Shown here piece after piece: positions 3,381 to 35,998 of a stretch of 43,884 nt of DNA. Under the pieces are notes generated by a model. The model made no database searches. It saw only the letters and a program-made list of their open reading frames with translations, and had not been told where the DNA came from. How positions within the stretch are numbered: position 1 is the stretch's first letter; the number at the start of each line of letters is the position of its first letter. Source of the stretch: Candidatus Delongbacteria bacterium (GTDB taxonomy: Bacteria > UBA4055); contig JAFGVM010000002.1 of the NCBI GenBank assembly GCA_016937995.1, positions 1-43,884 on the forward strand, given 5' to 3'. The position numbers were made by a program, and so were the translations under genes.

Positions 3381-6125
3381 CTATTTCATTAATACCATTT
3401 TTTTGGTTGATTCCTTTACTCCGTTTACATCAAGAGAATAATAATAAACTCCACTGTTCAAATCAGATGCATCGAATGTGACAGAATGTCTTCCAAGATT
3501 CTTAACTCCATTGAAAAGTGTAGAAACCAGCTGACCATTCACATTATAAACAATTAATTTCACTTTTGAATTGTCGTGTGGAACTGAGAAATTAATCGTA
3601 GTGTTCGGATTGAAAGGATTTGGATAGTTCTGTTCTAATTCATAATTCTCAATTTTCCATTCTCCATCATCAATTGAACTCTCATCGTCACAAAGAGCCT
3701 TAATACAAAAATTAGCTGTTCCCGGATATTCGATCTTATCGTTGTAGTAAAGATCATTCCACACTCCACCGTTTTTATAATAGCTTTCCCCTTCTGATGC
3801 TGATGATTCTACAATTGTCTTAGACTTTGCACCAAGAAGGACCGGAATATCGGAAGTTCTATCGAACGCATGTCCACCTTGAGACAAAGTTAACTGCACG
3901 TAAAAATCATCTGCTGCCGGAACATTCACGATCGACGGAAGATCTACAGTGTGAAATCCTTTGTATTCAATGTACCCTGATGTAGTTGACAGAAGGTTCT
4001 GCAGATCTGTACCATTAAAATCATCATAAATATTCACAGTGTAGTTAACGTTGTTCGTGGCGGTGTAAAAACTGACAGCGACTATATCTTCTTCTTTTAG
4101 TGATGTAAAGGCATTGAATGCTTCATCAACATCCGTCATTGTATCTCTCCAGCCATGATAATCATGATAGTAAATATTATCGTATTTTAAAGGTTCAACA
4201 TCAATGAATGATATCGCTCCCATTTCAATATTTTTAGTACAGTGTTTATCAAAATAAGATATCCAGAAATAACCGTCTTCGTAACCCCACCATTCACCCC
4301 AGCTGTTCTTTATCAACCATGCACCAGGACCTTCCGGAGCCTGAGTAATCTTGTCATCATCCCAACCAACAATGGCAACAGCATGATTTGGATCCTGAAG
4401 ATCAGAAGGTGGTTGATAATGTATGTTATCATTGTTCAGAAATGAAGAATCATACATTAAACAAGTTCCCATTACTCCATACTGAATTACTTTCTCTTTT
4501 ATGAGGCTACGGCTTTCCCAAGTATTATCCGTAGTGTACCATTCTATATCTCTAGGATAATAATAGTGATATGTTTCTTCACTTCGTCTAGGAGCAATAT
4601 CATACGACTGTCCGTCAATATCTCTTACAGCTCCTTCACCTCTACTCATATAGGCTGCTGTGACCAGATAATCCCCCCCCATGTGAACTTCTAATCCAGA
4701 TCCGTTCGATGGATCTATATCATCGTTATTATGCTCATTAAAACCATTCCACCAGTCAAGATGATATTCAGCAAGATTCGGTTCTCCGGTTTCCCCGACT
4801 GCTTCCCAGATACCGGACATAAGAAGATTGCTCTCCATTGCCGCCATAGCACCATGAGTCCAGCATGTACCCCCTTGTTGACTCTTGACTGAAGTAACAT
4901 AATTTTTATCAAGAGAAGTTCTAAGATCAAATGTTGCAGGATAAGCTTGTATCCATTTTTTAATGTATTCATCCGTGTATGTAACATTTCCTTCAGCATC
5001 CTCAATTGTGAACTTAATTTTACCATCAAGTACTAATTCTGTTTCAGCAGGAATAATACCCGAATAAATGTATTCGTGTATTTTTGATGGAGTCATTTCA
5101 AAATCATATTGAGTAAACCAGTCATCTTTTGAGTAGTGACCCATGCAGGATGTTATTTCAGATTCATCTTCAAAATTGATTTCTATTTCAGCTGATTCAT
5201 TAACAAAAGTCATTAATCCTGTCACATATTTAAAATTCGGAGGAATCGTGTCAAGAGCAAATACTAACGGATAATCGGTAGAAACCGTAAGATTTCCACC
5301 TATGTCATACAGGTCAAAATAAATATATCCCGATATTTCGTAAGTGAAAGTTGGAATACTTCCTTCCCAAAAATTCTCGTTGATTTCAGAGCGTTCGAAT
5401 ACTAGATCAGTTAATACTGCATCACCCTCAAATGAGTAATGACCAGTAACTGTGTCAGTTCCTGACCTGTCAGTAACATTTAATATTAAGGTCATATCGT
5501 TATTCAAAAATGCCCCGATGTCAGGTAATAATGCACTATTAGCCACAATATCGGTAATTACGGGTCCTTCTGCATCATGGAAAACTTCAATATCATCGAT
5601 GAACCACTGTGTGCTATAATCACCTGTATAATGAAATCCGATCTTTATATCCTGTCCGGTATAATCATGTATGGAAGCGGTTACAGCATATTGATCCCCA
5701 TCAATGATGTTTGCAGCAACATATGCAGGACCTTCTGACCAAATTACAGTAAAACTTACTCCCCCGTCTGTAGAAACACCTACTTCATGAATCCCGTCCA
5801 TATATTGTGTCCAGTAAACTGACTCCCAGAAACATAACGTAGCACTGTTTCCGGCCGGGATTGAGATTAATGGAGTGATCAACCAATCGTCTTGTGTACC
5901 ATAATCATCCATGTGAGCAGCTGCCTTTTGACCACTGTGTATAAACCCGCCCGAACTTACAGTTGATTCTTTAAAACCAGCACCTATAGATGTTAAAGAC
6001 CATCCATCAGGAGGGAAAACATCATTTTCAAAACCTTCGGAAAGAAGAATAGATTCTTTATCTGCTTTTTGTTGAGCAAACAATAAAATATTGATAAACA
6101 GGATTATAGTTATAAATCTTTTCAT
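3381..6125 (-). CDS. Secreted papain-like (C1) peptidase with type IX-style C-terminal sorting domain
   Basis: 914 residues. Signal peptide [19 protein letters not shown]; cleaved-adhesin/MAM-like domain about 30-185 ([23 protein letters not shown]); Ig-like sequence 187-395; C1 peptidase about 400-625 with C421 (GGTCWTHG), H581 ([12 protein letters not shown]) and N607 (KNSWGEWWG); lectin-like domain about 640-790; sorting domain from about 828 (NYPNPFNP, then IYNVNGQLV and GVYYYSL, ending KKMVLMK). The complete triad suggests an active cysteine protease. The ATG at 6125 follows GAGG in GAGGATATT. It is transcribed ahead of its paralog at 1-3315 with 65 bp between, so the two are probably co-transcribed. 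This copy lacks the roughly 270-residue N-terminal extension of the other. Extracellular protein degradation is inferred; the substrate is unknown. Confidence 0.9.
3625..3686 (-). repeat. Second copy of the 62-bp identical segment (see 53-114)
   Basis: Exact match to 53-114, in the same position of the paralogous gene, just upstream of the NPFNP motif of the sorting domain. Confidence 0.9.
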
Positions 6126-21522: not shown

Positions 21523-23826
21523 ATGAAAAATTTTACAATTATCATTTTACTGATCAACTCTATCCTATTTTCAGGAGAGCTTATTTTTAAGTATAATTTT
21601 GAAAAACCTGAAGTCATAGATAGAAAAGTTTTTTTAGAAGATTGTGACAGGTCAAATATTGCATTTTCTCCTTCCTTAGTCTTAAAACAGGTCAGATTGT
21701 TACTACCGGATGGCGAGAAGGCTGTATCATACAAGGTCAGTTACTCCAAGCCGGTTATCTTTGAAGAAAAATATGACATCTCCCCTGTCGAAGCTTCAGG
21801 AAGGCTTTCAGTAAATCCTCCTGCTGGGATACAAGGTAAAAGATCAGAAGTTTATTCAATAAATGAATTCTATCCGTCCAAAATAAACTCTGATAGATTT
21901 TTCACACAATACAAGAGCGGTCATCCGATCTTTATGACAATAATATATCCTGTACAGTATAATCCAGTGACCAAAGATCTAAGATATTATTCAGATATAA
22001 CACTCACCATTACTACAGAATCTAATCAAAAATCTGCAAAATTAGTAAGATCTTCTAAAAAAATTGAATCACTTATTAAAGCTATAGTGGACAATCCGCA
22101 ACAGGTAAATTTATCTTCAATATCTGTTAAGTCAGAGACTGATTATGATTATCTGATAATCACCCCAGATATTTTCACAGGTTCTTTCAGAGACTTTACG
22201 AACTTCAATTTACGTAGAGGATTGAAAACAACTATCAAATCTGTAGAAAGTATTTTAATTGAAATGACAGGTAATGACGATCAGGATAAAATCAGGAATT
22301 ATATAATTCAGGAATACACAAATAACAATATTACTTACGTTCTTCTCGCAGGAGACACAGATTATATTCCGCACAGAGGTTTCAGATCTGAAATAATGGA
22401 TTACGGAACAGACTATTATGACGAGACCGATATTCCCGCAGATATGTATTACGGCTGTTTAGACGGAACGTGGCAGTTACCTGCAAGCAGCTATTTTGGT
22501 GAACCGGGAAGTGAAGATCTTCTATGGGAAGTATACGTTTCCAGATTTTCTGTTGGAAATACTACAGAATTGACAAATATGATCCAGAAAACTATCCAAT
22601 ATTCTGAACAACCAGTAACCGGCAGGATCACAAATAATCTACTAGTCGGAGAACTTCTATGGGAAGAAGGCGGTGGCGAAGGATGGGTAGATTCATACGG
22701 TGGTGACTGTATGGATGAACTTGTGGATTATTGTGATCATAACAGTTATGAGACAACAGGATTTGATACTAATTGGACTAATTCAGAATTGTATGACAGA
22801 GATCTTGGTTATTGGTATAAAACTGACCTTTTCACTAAAATTAAAAATGAAGATATTACCTGGATCGACCATCTTGGTCATTCAAATAATACTTATAATA
22901 TGAGAATGACCAACAGTGACATTAAAAACAGTAACTTTGATAACGATGGTACAAGTTCCAACCCATTTGTAATTTATTCTCAAGGATGCTATTCAGGTGC
23001 ATTTGATAATAGAACTACAACACCTGGTTCATACACAATTGATTGCATAGGTGAAGCTTTTGTTGTATTTGCAAGAGCTGCTGTCGCTTATATCGGCAAC
23101 TCAAGATACGGATTAGGTTCTCCTTATGATACCGATGGTTCGGGACAAAGATTCCACAGATATTTTCATCATGCTACATTTGATCAAGATATAACTAAAA
23201 TTGAGCAAATGAATGCGTATTCAAAAGAGATCAACGCTCCATTGATCCTTGAAGAAGATATCAATCTTGGTCCATATTTCGGACAATGTAAATGGATCGC
23301 TTATTGTGTAAATGTCCTTGGAGATCCTGCTCTGGACATATGGACATCTGAGCCTCTGACTATGACAATTAATACTTTAGAAACTGTGGGATTCAATTCC
23401 ATTCCGACCATTCCTGTTGAAACAGATGTTCCTGGTGCAACTATCGCTGTTTTTTTTGAAGGAAATTATCTTTATAGTATTACAGCTGACCTTGATGGCA
23501 ATGCAGAACACAGTATGCCTGAAAGTATCGGACTTATAGAATATTATATCACGGCTCATAACTATCTACAGGGTTATGATACAACCGAGATCGTTACTGC
23601 CCCTGACTCTCCCTCAAACGTAGTAACGAACATTGTTCTAGATACATTTAATATGGATTGGGATACTGTCACTGATGCAAACTCATACATAATCTATGGA
23701 TCTGATGATCCGTATGGAAATTACAGCTATATAACAACAGTGGACACAAATTCATGGAGCACAACGATAGATTCAAATGTAAAGAAATTTTACCATATAG
23801 TAGCAAGCAGTGAACCGCTAAAATAA
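21523..23826 (+). CDS. Gingipain-type (C25) secreted cysteine peptidase
   Basis: 767 residues. Signal peptide (MKNFTIIILLINSILFSGE), a C25 propeptide-like N-terminal region (about 20-190), then the caspase-like C25 domain. Motifs: YDYLIITPDIF, ITYVLLAGDTDYIPHRG, the histidine in WIDHLGHSNN (H453), and the nucleophile in YSQGCYSGAFDN (C489). A beta-sandwich/fibronectin III-like tail closes the protein (SPSNVVTNIVLDTFNMDWDTV, ending SSEPLK). Unlike the two C1 peptidases, no sorting domain is seen at the C-terminus, so its route across the outer membrane is unclear. RBS GGAG precedes the ATG. It lies 18 bp after the AsmA-like gene. Confidence 0.87.
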   Translation: MKNFTIIILLINSILFSGELIFKYNFEKPEVIDRKVFLEDCDRSNIAFSPSLVLKQVRLLLPDGEKAVSYKVSYSKPVIFEEKYDISPVEASGRLSVNPPAGIQGKRSEVYSINEFYPSKINSDRFFTQYKSGHPIFMTIIYPVQYNPVTKDLRYYSDITLTITTESNQKSAKLVRSSKKIESLIKAIVDNPQQVNLSSISVKSETDYDYLIITPDIFTGSFRDFTNFNLRRGLKTTIKSVESILIEMTGNDDQDKIRNYIIQEYTNNNITYVLLAGDTDYIPHRGFRSEIMDYGTDYYDETDIPADMYYGCLDGTWQLPASSYFGEPGSEDLLWEVYVSRFSVGNTTELTNMIQKTIQYSEQPVTGRITNNLLVGELLWEEGGGEGWVDSYGGDCMDELVDYCDHNSYETTGFDTNWTNSELYDRDLGYWYKTDLFTKIKNEDITWIDHLGHSNNTYNMRMTNSDIKNSNFDNDGTSSNPFVIYSQGCYSGAFDNRTTTPGSYTIDCIGEAFVVFARAAVAYIGNSRYGLGSPYDTDGSGQRFHRYFHHATFDQDITKIEQMNAYSKEINAPLILEEDINLGPYFGQCKWIAYCVNVLGDPALDIWTSEPLTMTINTLETVGFNSIPTIPVETDVPGATIAVFFEGNYLYSITADLDGNAEHSMPESIGLIEYYITAHNYLQGYDTTEIVTAPDSPSNVVTNIVLDTFNMDWDTVTDANSYIIYGSDDPYGNYSYITTVDTNSWSTTIDSNVKKFYHIVASSEPLK

Positions 23827-25912: not shown

Positions 25913-27775
25913 TCATTTAATTGTAAAATACATACTGAATACCGGGAATCGTATATTTTTTATATCATCATCTTCCTTCATGAATGAAAATGATGTAAAT
26001 ATTATTCTATATTTGATCCTGTCATTTTCACCTTCATATGTCATTTCATCAGGCTCTAATTGATTATACTGATCGACAACTTTATTCTTTCTAACAAGCC
26101 CTTTAATAACAGTCTTGAGGTCTAATACAATATTGTCATTGGAGTTGTAAATAACAACCTGCATTCTATCTCTATCCAATTCTATAGAGATCCCATCCTG
26201 TATTATAGCCAGGGTATCACTTTGATAATTTGCTACATCATCTAATAAATAATCATATTCTTTAATGTTTATAAGTTGAGATTTATTATAATATTTCTTT
26301 TGGAATGAAATATTCTCTTTGTTTGTAACACCGGTCTGCCAATTATTAATCAATTGAAATCCAAATCCTTCTTTAACCAGTCTTGATCTACTGACATTAA
26401 GATCCTTATCTCTATAGTAATAATTGTCACTAACTGCTTCCTTTTTATTGAGAGTATCAGCTTCCAGTCTTTCTATTGTTTCTTTTAAAAATTCTACTTT
26501 ATCAATACCATGTGTATCATAGAAATATGAAACAATCGACGAAATTCCCTTTCTGTCATCGAAAGAAATATCCCCTGTTTCATTCTTAATTATCTTACCA
26601 TCGACAAGTATCTTAGTATTTGTTAAAAGTTTTTCAAGTCTCCCCTTCTGACTCGTAATAGAAATATTGAAACAGCTCCAGGGTCCGAATAAAGATAATA
26701 ATGAAATTATTGACAAAGTTATCGGCAGATATTTTAATTTCGCTTTCTTATTTATAACAAAATATACCGATACTCCCAGCAACCACAACGCCAGCAGGAT
26801 TACAAAATATCTTTTCTCAGTGATCCCATACTGTCCTACCCTCTTCGAAATTGCAAAGAACAGCATGATTATCAATGGAATAAGAGCTCTAAAGAAATAT
26901 TTTGTATAGGTCTCCAGGCCTTTATATTTCTCTGACTTTTTCAGTGGAGAAGACAGTATAAGAGAATTGATCCCTACGAATGAAAATGAAATGATGAGAT
27001 ATGAAACTATCCCTTTAGGCCAGTCCTGAGTAAATATCACTTTGAACATATAGACATATAGTATTCCTATGTAACCTATTACCATCGGCAGCAGAATATA
27101 TATTGTAAGCACCTTCATAGCCTTTGGAAATTCATAACTTTCAAGGCTTTTCTCTTTCCTGTCAGGAACACCGGCTAGAAAATACATTGGTGCGAACAAT
27201 GTGCTTACAACAGCAAAAATATCACCATATAAATTCTCGTGTATACCGAAGTCGAACAGCTGCTCAATTGCAAAAATGGCTGAAACGATCCCAAAAAACA
27301 GGATCTGAGCAAAGATCATACTGACTACAATTCTGATTATCATATCAACATTATATCTACCGAAATCCGGTTCACTATCTTCTTTTCTGATGTAAGCGAA
27401 CATTAATCCCATGAAAGTTGACAGGTAGAATATTGTCATTACGATAAAGTCTCTTTCTCTGAATTTTAAAGGTAAAGTAAAGTATAAATATATCATGAAA
27501 GCGACCATCAAAATGTTTATAACTGAACGCAAATTCAATGAATATTCTTTTTTCTCTGAGAATAACTTTATAGCCAATGAAAGCATAAAACCAAGAATGG
27601 AAACAAAGATGGCTTTAAGAATATGTTCTTTGTAATGGTACTTGTAGCCGCTTTCAATTTCCAGAATGAATAAAACACAGGTAATAACAGAGAATAAGAC
27701 AGGTAATGGAAATCTTTGAAAAACATTTTTTATTCCTTCGACAATGTTTTGAAATGATATTTTTTTTATTTTCAT
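25913..27775 (-). CDS. DUF4153-family polytopic membrane protein
   Basis: 620 residues from the ATG at 27775, chosen because AGGAGA sits just upstream; an upstream in-frame ATG at 27856 lacks a good RBS. About ten or more transmembrane helices fill the first 400 residues. The stretch DWPKGIVSYLIISFSFVG and the RVGQYGITEKRYFVILLALW segment are characteristic of DUF4153 proteins. The last 220 residues are soluble and charged. No enzymatic function is established for the family to my knowledge. It is transcribed away from the gene at 27968. Confidence 0.75.
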   Translation of the reverse strand: MKIKKISFQNIVEGIKNVFQRFPLPVLFSVITCVLFILEIESGYKYHYKEHILKAIFVSILGFMLSLAIKLFSEKKEYSLNLRSVINILMVAFMIYLYFTLPLKFRERDFIVMTIFYLSTFMGLMFAYIRKEDSEPDFGRYNVDMIIRIVVSMIFAQILFFGIVSAIFAIEQLFDFGIHENLYGDIFAVVSTLFAPMYFLAGVPDRKEKSLESYEFPKAMKVLTIYILLPMVIGYIGILYVYMFKVIFTQDWPKGIVSYLIISFSFVGINSLILSSPLKKSEKYKGLETYTKYFFRALIPLIIMLFFAISKRVGQYGITEKRYFVILLALWLLGVSVYFVINKKAKLKYLPITLSIISLLSLFGPWSCFNISITSQKGRLEKLLTNTKILVDGKIIKNETGDISFDDRKGISSIVSYFYDTHGIDKVEFLKETIERLEADTLNKKEAVSDNYYYRDKDLNVSRSRLVKEGFGFQLINNWQTGVTNKENISFQKKYYNKSQLINIKEYDYLLDDVANYQSDTLAIIQDGISIELDRDRMQVVIYNSNDNIVLDLKTVIKGLVRKNKVVDQYNQLEPDEMTYEGENDRIKYRIIFTSFSFMKEDDDIKNIRFPVFSMYFTIK

Positions 27776-27967
27776 AATTCTCTCCTGTAATTGCGAACCC
27801 GATTTAACGGATATGGATTCCTTCGTGATTGTATATTCCCGTTTTAAATCATTCATTTATCTTTTCAAATTAAATAATCTAAATCCCAAAAACAATTATA
27901 AAGTTAATTGATTTATCACAAATTATTTAGTTTATTGTAATAGTATTCATTTAATGAGGCAAAAAAT

Positions 27968-29749
27968 ATGATCGACCTTGAAAAATTCAATATTAAAATT
28001 GACAAAAGGATACTTTCACAGATACTGTTCTATTCAGCCATTGTGATATCTCTTACAGGTTTTATGATGTTCATGAACGGGTTTAATAGATTTTCGATCT
28101 CCGGGATAAGAAAAGATTCCGGAAGAGTTGAGTTTGAATTCTATGACAATTACCTTTATATGTTCTCTCATAACACTGAAAGTTATGCACCTGTCACTGA
28201 TATTAAATATTATAAGAGCGATTCAAAAAAAGAACCTGACAATCCTTTAATTGTATTTTTCACTACAACAAATGAGTATAAATTTTATGCTAAAGTTAAG
28301 GGTATTGATGAAGATGATCTGAAGGAGTTATATAAAGAACTTAGTGTGTTTATGGATGATGAGAGCATTAAAGAATTTGGAGATTCTTTCTTTTTTCTGA
28401 GATTTTATGGATTCTTCGGGTTAATAATAGCCGGACTCATAGGATATTATATAATACCTCTTTATAAACAAATTCCTGCTGCTTTGCCTAAACCAAAAAA
28501 AGAACCTAAAGCGAAAGGTAAAGAAAAAGCAGTGAAAAAAGACATAAAGGTCAAAAAAATAAAAAAAGTGGTTACAGCTGAAATGCTATTGAAAATAATC
28601 TTACCGGTTTTTGATCATGATTTTATTTTCAAACCTGAAATATATGATACACCATATACACACGGGGTTGCACTTGCCTGTACTCCGTTACAAAAAACTG
28701 AACTCTTAGAGAAATACGGTGATGATTACGAATATATTATTTGTGAGAAAAATACAAGTACCGCAGAGATGACCATTAAGGCCGAGACCTGGGTAAAAGA
28801 ACTTACCGGTTACCTCATAGTTCAGACAGCAAATATACCTGATCTCACTTCATCAATGCTTGTTGAATTTTACAAAGCCCATAAAAATGTTCAGAATGAA
28901 TGCACCATCTTAGCAACAGAATCATTCGAACCGGAAATTCCGTATGGTAAAATCATGAGGAATATGGCAAACAGAATTGTAACTATATCTGAAACAAATG
29001 AAAGTAATGATACCACGATACAGGCAGGACAGGTATCTTTGGGTTTATTCTGCTTTAACACAAAGAAAGTATTCGAAACTTTAAAAAGTCTGGATCATGG
29101 AGATGCCCTTGCTGGAGTATCATTGATAAAAATAGTTGACAGATACCAAAAGAACAGAAGCAAGATGAATACTTTTGTTGTTAAAACTTCTGCAAAACAT
29201 TCCATCAGGTCAAATATAGCTGCAACAGAAACCACAGTTATACCTTCCAAGAATACAAAAGCTATAATTCTATCAACAAATCTATATGATGCTGACAGGC
29301 TGAAAAACATTTATGAAACTTTGAAAGCCGCCATAAGCGATGTCATTGTTATTGTCAGTGCTGAGCACAGATCAGACACAATTGAGATCCTTGGAGATAC
29401 TGTAAAAATTGTCATTTCTGAAGGAAAACTCGGTGATGCAGATGATATTCTGAGAACAAATGATCATTTACGTGATTTTCATGGGCTGGTGTTAGTTGTA
29501 ACAGAAGATAATGACAGTATCTCAAAAGATATGATCAGCAAGTTGATTTCAGAACACACCAATCAAAACAATATTTGCTCATACGTAAAAAATGGTGACA
29601 ACAATTCTTTGTACTGTGCAGATGCATTTCAGTTCCTGTATGCTGTAAAGAAGATCGGCCGCAATATGGATGATAAAAAATATCATTTATCAGATCTGAC
29701 TGAAATTCTTTTAGAAGCTAACAAAAGAGTTCAGGAAGTCATTTTATAA
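27968..29749 (+). CDS. Membrane-anchored protein with two tandem degenerate GlmU-like nucleotidyltransferase domains
   Basis: 593 residues. Two helices (about 18-37 and 142-164) bracket a beta-rich, PH-like segment. A lysine-rich linker (about 174-200) follows. Residues about 230-410 line up with the pyrophosphorylase domain of GlmU: GYLIVQTANIPDL where GlmU has a VLVLYGDVPLI-like strand, then PYGKIMRNMANRIVTISE (GYGRIVRD-like) and SLGLFCFNTKKVFETL (NTGIYAF-like). Residues 430-593 repeat the pattern: KAIILSTNLYDADRLKNIYE, VKIVISEGKLGDADDIL, LVLVVTEDNDSI, and YHLSDLTEILLEANKRV (YYLTD-like). The glycine-rich loop LAAGxGTRM is missing from both, and the first domain has AN where GlmU has the metal-binding GD, so catalysis is doubtful. 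This reading rests on motif comparison by eye. Its partner and role are unknown. RBS GAGG. Confidence 0.6.
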   Translation: MIDLEKFNIKIDKRILSQILFYSAIVISLTGFMMFMNGFNRFSISGIRKDSGRVEFEFYDNYLYMFSHNTESYAPVTDIKYYKSDSKKEPDNPLIVFFTTTNEYKFYAKVKGIDEDDLKELYKELSVFMDDESIKEFGDSFFFLRFYGFFGLIIAGLIGYYIIPLYKQIPAALPKPKKEPKAKGKEKAVKKDIKVKKIKKVVTAEMLLKIILPVFDHDFIFKPEIYDTPYTHGVALACTPLQKTELLEKYGDDYEYIICEKNTSTAEMTIKAETWVKELTGYLIVQTANIPDLTSSMLVEFYKAHKNVQNECTILATESFEPEIPYGKIMRNMANRIVTISETNESNDTTIQAGQVSLGLFCFNTKKVFETLKSLDHGDALAGVSLIKIVDRYQKNRSKMNTFVVKTSAKHSIRSNIAATETTVIPSKNTKAIILSTNLYDADRLKNIYETLKAAISDVIVIVSAEHRSDTIEILGDTVKIVISEGKLGDADDILRTNDHLRDFHGLVLVVTEDNDSISKDMISKLISEHTNQNNICSYVKNGDNNSLYCADAFQFLYAVKKIGRNMDDKKYHLSDLTEILLEANKRVQEVIL

Positions 29750-29839: not shown

Positions 29840-31726
29840 CTATTTCTTTAATAGTTTTGCTTTCTCAACAAGTTGAACGAACTCTGCTCTGTACCCAAAG
29901 TCATCCTTCCCCATTGATCCTTTTGCCATTTCAAGCACACTGTCAAAAGTTGAATCACCAGCAAATTTTGATTCTCTTAAAAGCATTCCAAATTCTGCCA
30001 CTGCTGCTGAAAATCTGAAGTTATTTGACGATTTATCAAAAGATACACCTTCATCCGCTAAAGGATGTTCGATCAGCTTACTGACATCTTCTTTAGGTTC
30101 TTTATATCTTAGTTTAACGAACATCAGTTCATTGGTCTTATAAGCATAAGGAGTGGTCTCAAGCTGCTGATATTTCATATCGTCAACTTTCTTCTCTGTC
30201 TTGGCATTAGCAGGAACGATCTCATATAAAGCTGTAACTGTATGACCTGCTCCAAGCTCTCCGGCATCCTTTTTATCATCGTTAAAATCTTCTTTATTTA
30301 AGAGTCTGTTCTCATAACCGATCAGTCTGTATGAATCTACTTTTGCAGGATTGAATTCTATCTGAATCTTAACATCCTTTGCAATAGTGTACATAGTTCC
30401 CGCAAGCTCTGTTACAAGTACTTTTTTAGCCTCAAGAATATTATCTATGTAGAAGTAATTACCATTGCCTTTTTCAGCGATCTCTTCCATTCTACCGTCT
30501 TTGTAATTACCCATACCGAATCCAAGGATAGTCAGGAATATACCTTCATTTCTTTTCTCTTCCATCATCTTTACAAGTTCAGATGTACTTGAAACTCCAA
30601 CATTAAAATCACCATCTGTTGCCAAAATTATTCTGTTATTACCATCTTTTATCAAATTCTCTTCAGCGATCTTGTAAGCTAACTTTATACCTGCTCCGCC
30701 TGCTGTAGAACCACCTGCACTTAAAGCATTTAATGCATCCAGTATTTTTTTCTTCTCAGAAACTTCTGTAGATGGAAGAACGACACCTGCTGCACCGGCG
30801 TAAACCGCAATTGCAACTTTATCGGTAGGTTTCAAAGCATCAAGCAACAGACTGAATGATTTTTTTAGAAGACCAAGCTTATTTTCAGAATTCATAGAGC
30901 CTGAAACATCAAGTAAAAATACAAAATTGCTCTTTACGTCACTTCCCTGCTCCATTTGTTTTCCCTGAAGGCCGATGTGTACCAGTTTATTCTGTTTATT
31001 CCATGGACAGTCTGAGATCTCTGTGTTCACTGCAAAAGGAACTTCATCCTTAGGATAGTCATAGTCATAGTTAAAGTAATTTATCATTTCTTCAATCCTG
31101 ATCGCATCTTTGTACGGCATCTGATTCTGATTGATAAATCTTCTCATGTTCGAGTAGGAAGCAGCATCAACATCTATAGAAAAAGTTGAGATCGGAGTTT
31201 CTATGACCTTTTTGAATTCGTTCTCAGTTATAGAAGAATATTCCTCTGTGTTGTGCTGAATTTGACCTTCGCCGTTAGCTACCATTCCAACTGATATTGC
31301 ATCCATACTCATCATCGGCGCAACCCTTTTCTCACTCTTTCTAACCTGATAAGTTACATCAATTTCAGAAAGTTCAACTTCTGCATCCAGATCTTCTTCT
31401 ACCGGCTCTGCAGGTTTAATTACAGATAATTTAAAATTCAGAACCGTAGTCTTATCTGCATTGATTTTCACCCCTGCAGTTTCTTTAGAATTATAATTAA
31501 CAAGCTGAGCTTTAACGGTGTAAGTTCCGTCAGGTATGTTTTCAATTTTATAAAAACCCTTACTGTCAGTCTTTCCCCAGTATTTTGTACCTGTCAGGTA
31601 AACACCTGCACCTTTGAGTTTATTACCTTTCATGTCAGTAACTGTACCTTCGATAATTCCAGTCGTTCCTGCAAAAATACAAGTAACTAAAATGAGCATA
31701 AATACGATGATCCCGAATCTTTTCAT
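29840..31726 (-). CDS. YfbK-like VWA-domain protein with carboxypeptidase-regulatory-like N-terminal domain
   Basis: 628 residues from the ATG at 31726, preceded by GGAGGA; the ATG at 31738 contains that RBS and is rejected. A signal peptide (MKRFGIIVFMLILVTCIFAG) is followed by a carboxypeptidase-D regulatory-like beta-sandwich (about 24-102; GTVTDMKGNKLKGAGVYL). Then come the VWA N-terminal domain (STFSIDVDAASYSNMRRFI), the VWA domain with MIDAS DVSGSM (D273 onward), and a C-terminal YfbK/DUF3520-like region. Proteins of this build are common in FCB bacteria and probably act in the envelope through metal-dependent protein binding. A specific function is not known. Convergent with the gene at 27968. 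Confidence 0.85.
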   Translation of the reverse strand: MKRFGIIVFMLILVTCIFAGTTGIIEGTVTDMKGNKLKGAGVYLTGTKYWGKTDSKGFYKIENIPDGTYTVKAQLVNYNSKETAGVKINADKTTVLNFKLSVIKPAEPVEEDLDAEVELSEIDVTYQVRKSEKRVAPMMSMDAISVGMVANGEGQIQHNTEEYSSITENEFKKVIETPISTFSIDVDAASYSNMRRFINQNQMPYKDAIRIEEMINYFNYDYDYPKDEVPFAVNTEISDCPWNKQNKLVHIGLQGKQMEQGSDVKSNFVFLLDVSGSMNSENKLGLLKKSFSLLLDALKPTDKVAIAVYAGAAGVVLPSTEVSEKKKILDALNALSAGGSTAGGAGIKLAYKIAEENLIKDGNNRIILATDGDFNVGVSSTSELVKMMEEKRNEGIFLTILGFGMGNYKDGRMEEIAEKGNGNYFYIDNILEAKKVLVTELAGTMYTIAKDVKIQIEFNPAKVDSYRLIGYENRLLNKEDFNDDKKDAGELGAGHTVTALYEIVPANAKTEKKVDDMKYQQLETTPYAYKTNELMFVKLRYKEPKEDVSKLIEHPLADEGVSFDKSSNNFRFSAAVAEFGMLLRESKFAGDSTFDSVLEMAKGSMGKDDFGYRAEFVQLVEKAKLLKK

Positions 31727-31820
31727 ACGATCCTCCATTTTTATATATTAAAATAATTTTGACGTTCTTTGTTATAAACAATAAAATGAATAATGTTCAA
31801 AATCACAAACGAAATATTTT

Positions 31821-33958: not shown

Positions 33959-35998
33959 ATGTTTAGATTAATAAGTATTTTGCTGATAGTGTCCCTTCCT
34001 ATCATTGCGTTCGGAAATATTGATGACATGAAAACTGCAATAGACCGTGATGATCTTGTTAAGGTCAAGATCATTTTGAAATCTGATAGAGGTCTTCTAG
34101 AACAAAAGATCGACGAATATTTAACACCATTGAACTACGCTGCTGTAAAAAATATGACAGATATTGGTAAATTCCTGATAGATTATGGTGCCAACATCAA
34201 TGCACCCGATAAAGAAGGAAGTATTCCAATTCATAATTCTGCTGCAAAAGGGAATTATGAACTGACAAAATATTTGATAGAGAAAGGTAGCAACATAAAT
34301 TATAAAGACATTAATGGTGTTACTCCATCATATTTTGCATCTGCTTCAGGAAATCTACAATTAATAAAGTATATGGAAGAGAATGGTGCTGACTTTGAAA
34401 ATATTTCTCCAAGCGGAGTAACTCCTCTACATTTTGCTGCAAGTAACGGAAACAATCAAATGTTGAAATATTTTATTGACAAAGGATTTGATGTAAATGC
34501 AAAAAACACTGCTGGGCAAACACCGATAGTTTGGGCAGTTGCAAGAAACAATGTTGAAGCAATAAAGTTATTAAAAGATAATAGTGCGGATATTAATTAT
34601 GTTGATGAACATGAGCAAAATTTATTATTTATAGCCGCATCTAGGAAGGCAAAAGAAAGTTTTGAACTACTTTTAAGCTATGGACTTGATATTAACTCTA
34701 AAGACAAATACGACCAAACTCCATTAACTAATGCTGTTCATAGTGGAAAAGAAATGGTAGAATATCTTTTGGAAAAAGGTGCCGAACCAGCCCCGATAGA
34801 ATGTATGAATGGTAATACCTGCAGAATTGAAGGCAATACACCTTTGCATGGTGCTATGTACGCAAATGATCTGGAAGTTGTTAAGGCACTCGTTGATCAT
34901 AAAGCTCCTGTAAATATTCAGGATAAAGACGGAGTAACCCCATTGGCAATTGCAGTAAGAAATGGTTCAGCGGATATAGTAAAATTTCTATTAGACGAAG
35001 GTGCAGACCCAAATCTGAAAGATAATATACTTGAACAGGCTCCATTACACATCGCATCAAGTAAAGGATATAAGGATATTGTTGATATTCTGTTGGAAAA
35101 AGGTGTTGACGTTAATTTAGAGGACGGTCAGGATCAAACAGCATTGTATTTGGCTACTTTTCATAATAATAAAAGTGTTGTAAAATCATTACTTCAGAAA
35201 GGTGCAGATACAAATGATCTGAAATCAATGAACAGTTACAAGGATATAAAGAACGATGAAGCAAAAATATGGTTCCTTGGTCACAGTGGTTGGGCAATTA
35301 AAACAAAAGACCATCTTTTAATATTTGATTATTTTGAAAGTAGTAGAGCAACAAAACCTGATGAACCAAATATCAATAATGGTTATCTAGACCCTGAGCA
35401 ACTAAAAGATGAAAACATTATAGTATTTATCTCGCATTCTCATCAAGATCACTATCAGGCTTCTTTATTTGACTGGGAAAAGAAATATCCTAACGTTAAG
35501 TATGTTGTCGGATTCGATCCCAAGAAAGAAGTTAAGAATTTGAATATTGTTGAAGGTAGGAAAAATATTAATATTGATGGAGTAGAGATCATAACTGTTC
35601 CTTCAACTGACTCTGGTGTAGGATTCCTTATAAAAACAAACGGGTTAACAATATTTCATCCGGGTGACCATGCAAATATGAGCAGAGAGCTGAATGGCCC
35701 TTATGTTAAAGAGATCGATTATCTTGCCTCATTGACTGATAAAGTAGACATCTCATTCTTCCCGGTCACAGGTTGTAATTTCAGGGATAAGATCTCATTG
35801 AAGATGGGCGTGAAATATGCTATCGACAAATTAAATCCAAAAACCGTATTCCCTATGCATTGTGGTAATAATGAAGCTCAGTTGAAAACATTCATAGATG
35901 AATCAATAGCAGAAGGTATTATAGCAAATTTCAAGTGTGCTACCTGCAAAGGAGATAACTTTATATTTAAGAACGGTGACATTGTTTACAATTATTGA
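33959..35998 (+). CDS. Secreted ankyrin-repeat / metallo-beta-lactamase-fold fusion protein
   Basis: 679 residues. Signal peptide (MFRLISILLIVSLPIIAFGN). Residues about 25-420 carry roughly 11 to 12 ankyrin repeats (for example GVTPLHFAASNGNNQMLKYF, GNTPLHGAMYANDLEVVKAL, GVTPLAIAVRNGSADIVKFL). Residues about 434-679 form an MBL-fold hydrolase: FLGHSGW, HSHQDH (H493, H495, D497, H498), IFHPGDH (D570, H571) and FPMH (H634), which would bind two metals. The family resembles UlaG-like or general MBL hydrolases; the substrate is unknown. GGAGA precedes the ATG. A periplasmic or extracellular location is inferred from the signal peptide. The ankyrin solenoid may bring the hydrolase to a protein target. 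Confidence 0.85.
   Translation: MFRLISILLIVSLPIIAFGNIDDMKTAIDRDDLVKVKIILKSDRGLLEQKIDEYLTPLNYAAVKNMTDIGKFLIDYGANINAPDKEGSIPIHNSAAKGNYELTKYLIEKGSNINYKDINGVTPSYFASASGNLQLIKYMEENGADFENISPSGVTPLHFAASNGNNQMLKYFIDKGFDVNAKNTAGQTPIVWAVARNNVEAIKLLKDNSADINYVDEHEQNLLFIAASRKAKESFELLLSYGLDINSKDKYDQTPLTNAVHSGKEMVEYLLEKGAEPAPIECMNGNTCRIEGNTPLHGAMYANDLEVVKALVDHKAPVNIQDKDGVTPLAIAVRNGSADIVKFLLDEGADPNLKDNILEQAPLHIASSKGYKDIVDILLEKGVDVNLEDGQDQTALYLATFHNNKSVVKSLLQKGADTNDLKSMNSYKDIKNDEAKIWFLGHSGWAIKTKDHLLIFDYFESSRATKPDEPNINNGYLDPEQLKDENIIVFISHSHQDHYQASLFDWEKKYPNVKYVVGFDPKKEVKNLNIVEGRKNINIDGVEIITVPSTDSGVGFLIKTNGLTIFHPGDHANMSRELNGPYVKEIDYLASLTDKVDISFFPVTGCNFRDKISLKMGVKYAIDKLNPKTVFPMHCGNNEAQLKTFIDESIAEGIIANFKCATCKGDNFIFKNGDIVYNY

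Follow-up and report, generated by a model that had tools for sequence, protein, structure and literature searches.

Pseudoenzymes with the sugar-nucleotidyltransferase fold are known mainly as soluble eukaryotic regulators, and our search of the open literature found none derived from GlmU. GMPPA, a eukaryotic paralogue of GDP-mannose pyrophosphorylase that has no catalytic activity, retains product binding and pairs with an active paralogue (PMC11228364). Here, we describe a gene of Candidatus Delongbacteria encoding a protein, referred to as pseudo-GlmU, in which two GlmU-derived domains follow a putative membrane module. The gene lies in a window of 43,884 nucleotides (GenBank assembly GCA_016937995.1, contig JAFGVM010000002.1), the whole stretch of DNA analysed, to which all coordinates given without a locus name refer. 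In common with GMPPA, pseudo-GlmU appears to be a dead sugar nucleotidyltransferase, with catalytic residues lost from a protein that is itself under purifying selection, and with a probable non-catalytic role. Product binding and an active partner are features described for GMPPA, which lacks such a membrane module. Although dead sugar nucleotidyltransferases are already known, a duplicated, membrane-tethered bacterial one is undescribed as far as we searched; the original prediction that no protein of this form had been described is consistent with the Pfam, outside-phylum genome and open-literature searches.

Gene and domain architecture

The gene is an open frame of 593 aa (27968-29749, plus strand), with a Shine-Dalgarno-like GAGG located 8 bases 5' of the ATG and full-length orthologues in the phylum; the opposite strand of the same interval has many stops in the frame read. 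A gap of 111 bases separates its start from a DUF4153 gene (25913-27856, minus strand), which is divergent, and a gap of 90 bases separates its end from a convergent gene for a YfbK-type VWA protein (29840-31738, minus strand). From the N-terminus, the protein is predicted to comprise a transmembrane helix, an ectodomain of about 107 aa, a second transmembrane helix, a Lys-rich linker and the two domains derived from the GlmU uridyltransferase.

The whole protein matched the NCBIfam GlmU models with an E-value of 3.3e-28, and each half did so alone, aa 205-431 matching profile positions 55-219 of NF010934 at 2.7e-18 and aa 425-593 matching with an E-value of 1.9e-12. With a score of 98.4 bits against a curated cut-off of 450, the family threshold is not reached, and a Pfam scan of the 593-aa protein gave no significant match. 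In a phmmer search of the PDB, GlmU structures were the best matches, and 9dqf was matched by two separate stretches, one per copy. The AlphaFold model of the full protein, built from a three-sequence alignment, has a pLDDT of 44 overall but is fair in copy 2 (73-84 over aa 431-480), and apart from this copy only parts of copy 1 can be used; the top 50 Foldseek matches to it were all GlmU or related nucleotidyltransferases, with GlmU first (1.1e-8). Aligned with each other by hhalign, copies 1 and 2 scored 95.6 (E-value 1e-14), compared with 9.7-21.0 for 20 column-shuffled controls, which rules out chance resemblance. Given the per-half NCBIfam matches, the two phmmer stretches, the Foldseek result and the hhalign score relative to controls, the C-terminal region consists of two GlmU-derived domains, neither a single domain nor an unrelated fold. 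Thus, the tandem arrangement proposed from the sequence was correct, with boundaries now placed at about aa 205-416 for copy 1 (28580-29215) and about aa 425-593 for copy 2 (29240-29746), and the motif parallels drawn at that stage also hold, SLGLFCFN aligning with NTGIYAF and YHLSDL with YYLTD.

Each copy is homologous to GlmU (NF010934, TIGR01173; PDB 1hm0, 9dqf) over most of the domain and follows its order of strands and motifs. Unlike GlmU, the protein is duplicated, carries an added membrane module, scores far below the curated cut-offs, lacks the GxGTRM...PK loop and the metal ligands, and has no C-terminal acetyltransferase (LbH) domain detectable by Pfam or NCBIfam.

Loss of the active site in both copies

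Both copies of the seven full-length orthologues were compared with 15 true GlmU-type enzymes from this phylum and others, using residue roles that we take to be those of the E. coli GlmU uridyltransferase. The sites are intact in all 15 enzymes, which were chosen by the signature motif itself. All seven orthologues lack the LAAGxGTRM...PK loop, which holds Gly-x-Gly-Thr-Arg-Met and Lys25, in each copy (a deletion of 18 residues in copy 1 and 15 in copy 2 of the 593-aa protein), and with it the UTP contacts. At the position of the metal ligand Asp105, copy 1 has N, N, I, P, D, R and D across the orthologues and copy 2 has D, D, E, T, N, N and N, and the Gln76, Gly81, Thr82 and Asp105 positions are mostly unconserved. 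Asn227, the second metal ligand, is absent together with the C-terminal segment that bears it, and copy 2 has also lost the central segment of about 40 residues holding the GlcNAc-binding Gly140, Glu154 and Asn169. In the 593-aa protein, copy 1 has N289 at the Asp105 position, that is, AN for GD, as had been noted along with the missing LAAGxGTRM, and in copy 2 ED takes the place of GD. These losses of catalytic residues are common to all seven orthologues, and the claim that both copies are catalytically dead is well supported.

In copy 2, an acidic loop around LGDADD (aa 485-493; 29420-29446) replaces the EQLGTGHA nucleotide/sugar loop of GlmU in the alignments, with G-D in six orthologues and G-E in the seventh. 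A loop conserved in most orthologues at the place where GlmU holds its substrate could mean that the protein has kept enzymatic activity through an altered active site, for instance with a metal held by this loop. However, neither copy has a conserved nucleotide- or phosphate-binding loop left, and other positions near the pocket vary freely, so we regard such an enzyme as very improbable. The invariant cysteines C312, C362, C537 and C550 were considered as a new metal site and rejected; they are probably inherited, since GlmU2, a uridyltransferase of the same phylum, carries cysteines at equivalent positions in its ACT and YCF motifs.

Copy 1 retains an equivalent of Gly140 in six of the seven orthologues and of Glu154 in four (G327 and E342 in the 593-aa protein), and the hairpin joining both, GKI[MI]RN[MV]ANRIVxIS..E (aa 326-345; 28943-29002), heads the conservation list for this copy. 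Through this residual pocket, copy 1 might bind a sugar, sugar phosphate or nucleotide sugar and relay the signal through the membrane module, a role for which the retained GDP-mannose binding of the dead pyrophosphorylase GMPPA offers a precedent (PMC11228364). We consider a ligand sensor of this kind possible but doubtful, as the UTP contacts are deleted, the equivalents of Gln76, Gly81, Asp105 and Asn169 are lost or variable, the hairpin is missing from copy 2, and an interaction surface would explain the conservation of the hairpin equally well. The protein had been predicted to be a catalytically dead, sugar-nucleotide-binding pair; the first part of that description stands, while a binding pair is not supported, given the deleted UTP loop, the absence of the sugar hairpin from copy 2 and the retention of only two sugar-contact equivalents, in copy 1 of most orthologues.

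Distribution and selection

Full-length orthologues are present in seven of the 13 Candidatus Delongbacteria genomes (G000, G002, G005, G006, G008, G010 and G011), representing four genera, at identities of 23-59%. A further genome, G003, has a membrane module that is cut by a contig end. The G009 contig stops within the gene that follows pseudo-GlmU or its paralogue in three relatives and is not scorable as an absence, and the assemblies of G001 and G012 are in fragments; G004 and G007 have no pseudo-GlmU at a completeness of at least 94%. Among 373 genomes outside the phylum, none contains the full architecture, and the membrane module alone gave one marginal match (5e-4). Similarly, scanning genome contigs with the three-sequence alignment returned matches only in two Delongbacteria records. 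Within the genomes searched, this pseudoenzyme architecture is restricted to the phylum.

In comparison with the orthologue of G002, which is 59% identical, dN amounts to 0.29 and dS to about 2, which is near saturation, giving a dN/dS of about 0.15; values for the neighbouring YfbK-type gene are much alike (dN 0.30, dS 1.2). The Lys-rich linker is the least conserved part, with 36% identity to this orthologue against 59% overall. Because dN is so low relative to a near-saturated dS, the gene is under purifying selection and is not decaying. The loss of catalytic residues would also be expected of a decaying pseudogene or an assembly artefact, an explanation that can be practically dismissed considering the dN/dS, the full-length frames in seven genomes and the identical losses in every orthologue.

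Origin and relatives in the phylum

GlmU1, the active stand-alone type, has an intact N-terminus in 11 of the 13 genomes and is represented by a contig-edge fragment in a twelfth; it adjoins panB/panC-like genes, identified by eye. The intact uridyltransferase at L044:5010-5750 has 247 aa and stands alone, with no acetyltransferase domain, and the GlmU of the phylum seems to be split. GlmU2 was found intact only in G002, G007 and G010; its three loci are L039:4918-5670, L040:5279-6049 and L041:4767-5492. Two of its loci have an adjoining galactokinase-like GHMP kinase (L039:4918-6745, L040:5279-8392) and the third a Gfo/Idh-type dehydrogenase (L041:4767-6739), and Asn169 is replaced in two of the three enzymes, hinting at another sugar substrate. 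A scan of viral contigs found no GlmU2 relatives.

By profile score and tree, GlmU2 is the nearest relative of both copies (hhalign E-values of 1e-25 for copy 1 and 1.3e-23 for copy 2). The tree separates GlmU1 and the enzymes of other phyla from GlmU2 and all pseudo-domains with support of 99/98. The pseudo-domains group together at 90/68, which is not significant, and AU tests did not reject alternative branchings in which the pseudo-domains join GlmU1 (p 0.06), copy 1 joins GlmU2 (p 0.21) or copy 2 does so (p 0.45). Pseudo-GlmU and GlmU2 have in common the ACT and YCF cysteines and an insertion of one residue after strand 2; the IP insertion is also present in two of the three GlmU2 proteins. 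Given the tree, the insertion after strand 2 and the cysteines, a single origin from a GlmU2-like enzyme followed by internal duplication is the best reading, though not proven. In contrast to pseudo-GlmU, GlmU2 is a soluble, single-domain protein that keeps all signature residues, except for Asn169 in two of the three.

These relatives bear on the idea that pseudo-GlmU is a GMPPA-like regulatory pseudo-subunit, recruiting or inhibiting an active stand-alone uridyltransferase of the same cell at the membrane. Dead paralogues are known to inhibit active pyrophosphorylases (PMC11228364), and the distribution of GlmU1 would provide a target in most genomes. On the other hand, such a role toward GlmU2, the closest active relative, is weakened because, of the seven genomes that encode pseudo-GlmU, two yielded GlmU2 and five did not; moreover, pseudo-GlmU is linked to neither GlmU1 nor GlmU2 loci. 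We therefore judge this alternative unlikely.

Membrane module and predicted topology

The hydropathy profile peaks at about aa 15-33 and aa 141-159, as it does at matching places in homologues. These peaks coincide with helices predicted at aa 13-39 and 132-167 and delimit transmembrane helix 1 (about aa 14-39; 28007-28084) and transmembrane helix 2 (about aa 141-167; 28388-28468), in keeping with the two-helix tether originally predicted. Between them lies the putative ectodomain (about aa 40-140; 28085-28387). The second helix is followed by the Lys-rich linker, taken as cytoplasmic (aa 168-204; 28469-28579), and the interval aa 165-205 contains 15 Lys or Arg residues. Because of the two peaks, the loop of about 107 aa and the K/R-rich stretch, hydropathy and charge suggest that the N-terminus is inside, the ectodomain outside and the GlmU domains in the cytoplasm.

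The AlphaFold model of the membrane module has a pLDDT of 55, about 50 or below in the ectodomain, and this low-confidence model orders the module as a helix, five strands and two helices. In the ectodomain, the model and an alignment of 11 homologues place beta strands before a conserved helix. Searched against the PDB, the module model gave no fold match.

Stand-alone modules of about 192 aa occur in three genomes of the source genus (L037:4424-4999, L038:275-847 and L043:1262-1837), near an amino-acid-permease-like gene; genomes with relatives of the L037 module include G001 and G002. In G011, a tandem paralogue directly after the double-domain gene (L032:10548-11690) joins the membrane module to one pseudo-GlmU domain. 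Since the module is found alone or with a single pseudo-GlmU domain, module and dead domains appear to be mixed and matched as in adaptor proteins.

Gene neighbourhood

The convergent gene at 29840-31738 encodes a secreted YfbK-type VWA protein with a CarboxypepD_reg domain, identified by Pfam and followed by phylum search and synteny. Loci of this VWA and CarboxypepD_reg type beside pseudo-GlmU or its module are, apart from this one, L031, L032, L034 and L108. Seven members of the YfbK C-terminal family are spread over six of the 13 phylum genomes, and in all five genomes holding both (G000, G002, G003, G010 and G011) the YfbK-type gene is adjacent to pseudo-GlmU or its module. The two genes are convergent in genus g1 and divergent in the other genera. 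Because g1 and g4/g5 have different flanking genes, the adjacency of the two genes seems to have survived rearrangement, although part of the agreement within g4 and g5 may be inherited synteny. A second, unlinked YfbK-type copy is present in G002, and G007 has a copy without pseudo-GlmU. The YfbK-type VWA proteins (PF12034, PF12450) are not homologous to pseudo-GlmU; the relation is that of a conserved neighbour gene only.

A secreted protein of 303-315 aa is encoded 9-23 bases 3' of the pseudo-GlmU gene or its paralogue in G005, G010 and G011. Members of this family, of about 300-400 aa, were located at L032:11703-12614, L033:10450-11382, L034:8930-9877 and L089:3668-6450, with two unlinked copies in the source genome, and the family has no significant match in Pfam. 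A sensor or scaffold for cell-wall precursor supply had been proposed, and this link was rejected: no precursor gene was seen beside any member, the conserved neighbours being the YfbK-type VWA gene and the secreted protein.

Elsewhere in the window, a gene at 33959-35998 (plus strand) encodes a protein in which ankyrin repeats precede a domain of metallo-beta-lactamase-like type (PF13483). A papain-like protease with a Por secretion tail (3381-6125, minus strand) and a gingipain-type C25 peptidase (21523-23826, plus strand) suggest a type IX secretion system.

Proposed role and significance

We propose that pseudo-GlmU is a non-catalytic membrane-anchored adaptor or regulator, and give the whole proposal, including origin, partner faces and topology, a probability of about 0.5. 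Under this proposal, a uridyltransferase domain of GlmU type, closely related to the phylum's own kinase-linked GlmU2, would have been duplicated, lost the catalytic loop and metal ligands, and become fused to the two-helix membrane module. The product would be an inner-membrane protein with the ectodomain outside and the tandem dead domains in the cytoplasm. The conserved faces are the hairpin of copy 1 and, in copy 2, the acidic loop and the C-terminal helix (aa 571-588). These would bind a cytoplasmic protein partner, while the ectodomain may bind or report on a component of the envelope, for which the neighbouring YfbK-type VWA protein is a plausible candidate.

Some observations count against this proposal. 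G005, G006 and G008 have pseudo-GlmU without a YfbK gene, the linkage within g4 and g5 may in part be inherited, and in most orthologues copy 1 keeps two sugar-contact positions that a pure adaptor would not need. More tentatively, and at somewhat less than even odds, pseudo-GlmU may be a phylum-specific membrane receptor/adaptor, with the duplicated dead GlmU fold inside, that works with the envelope YfbK-type VWA protein.

For genome annotation, these data carry a warning, as profile matches would label pseudo-GlmU as GlmU. The linked pseudo-GlmU gene also supplies a concrete candidate partner for the YfbK-type VWA proteins, a poorly understood envelope family. If the receptor/adaptor reading is true, a sugar-nucleotidyltransferase fold would serve as a transmembrane signalling or scaffolding domain, a use for which we found no description. 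Pseudo-GlmU would represent the reuse of this fold for a non-catalytic role in a bacterial, duplicated and membrane-tethered form, conserved across genera of an uncultured phylum.
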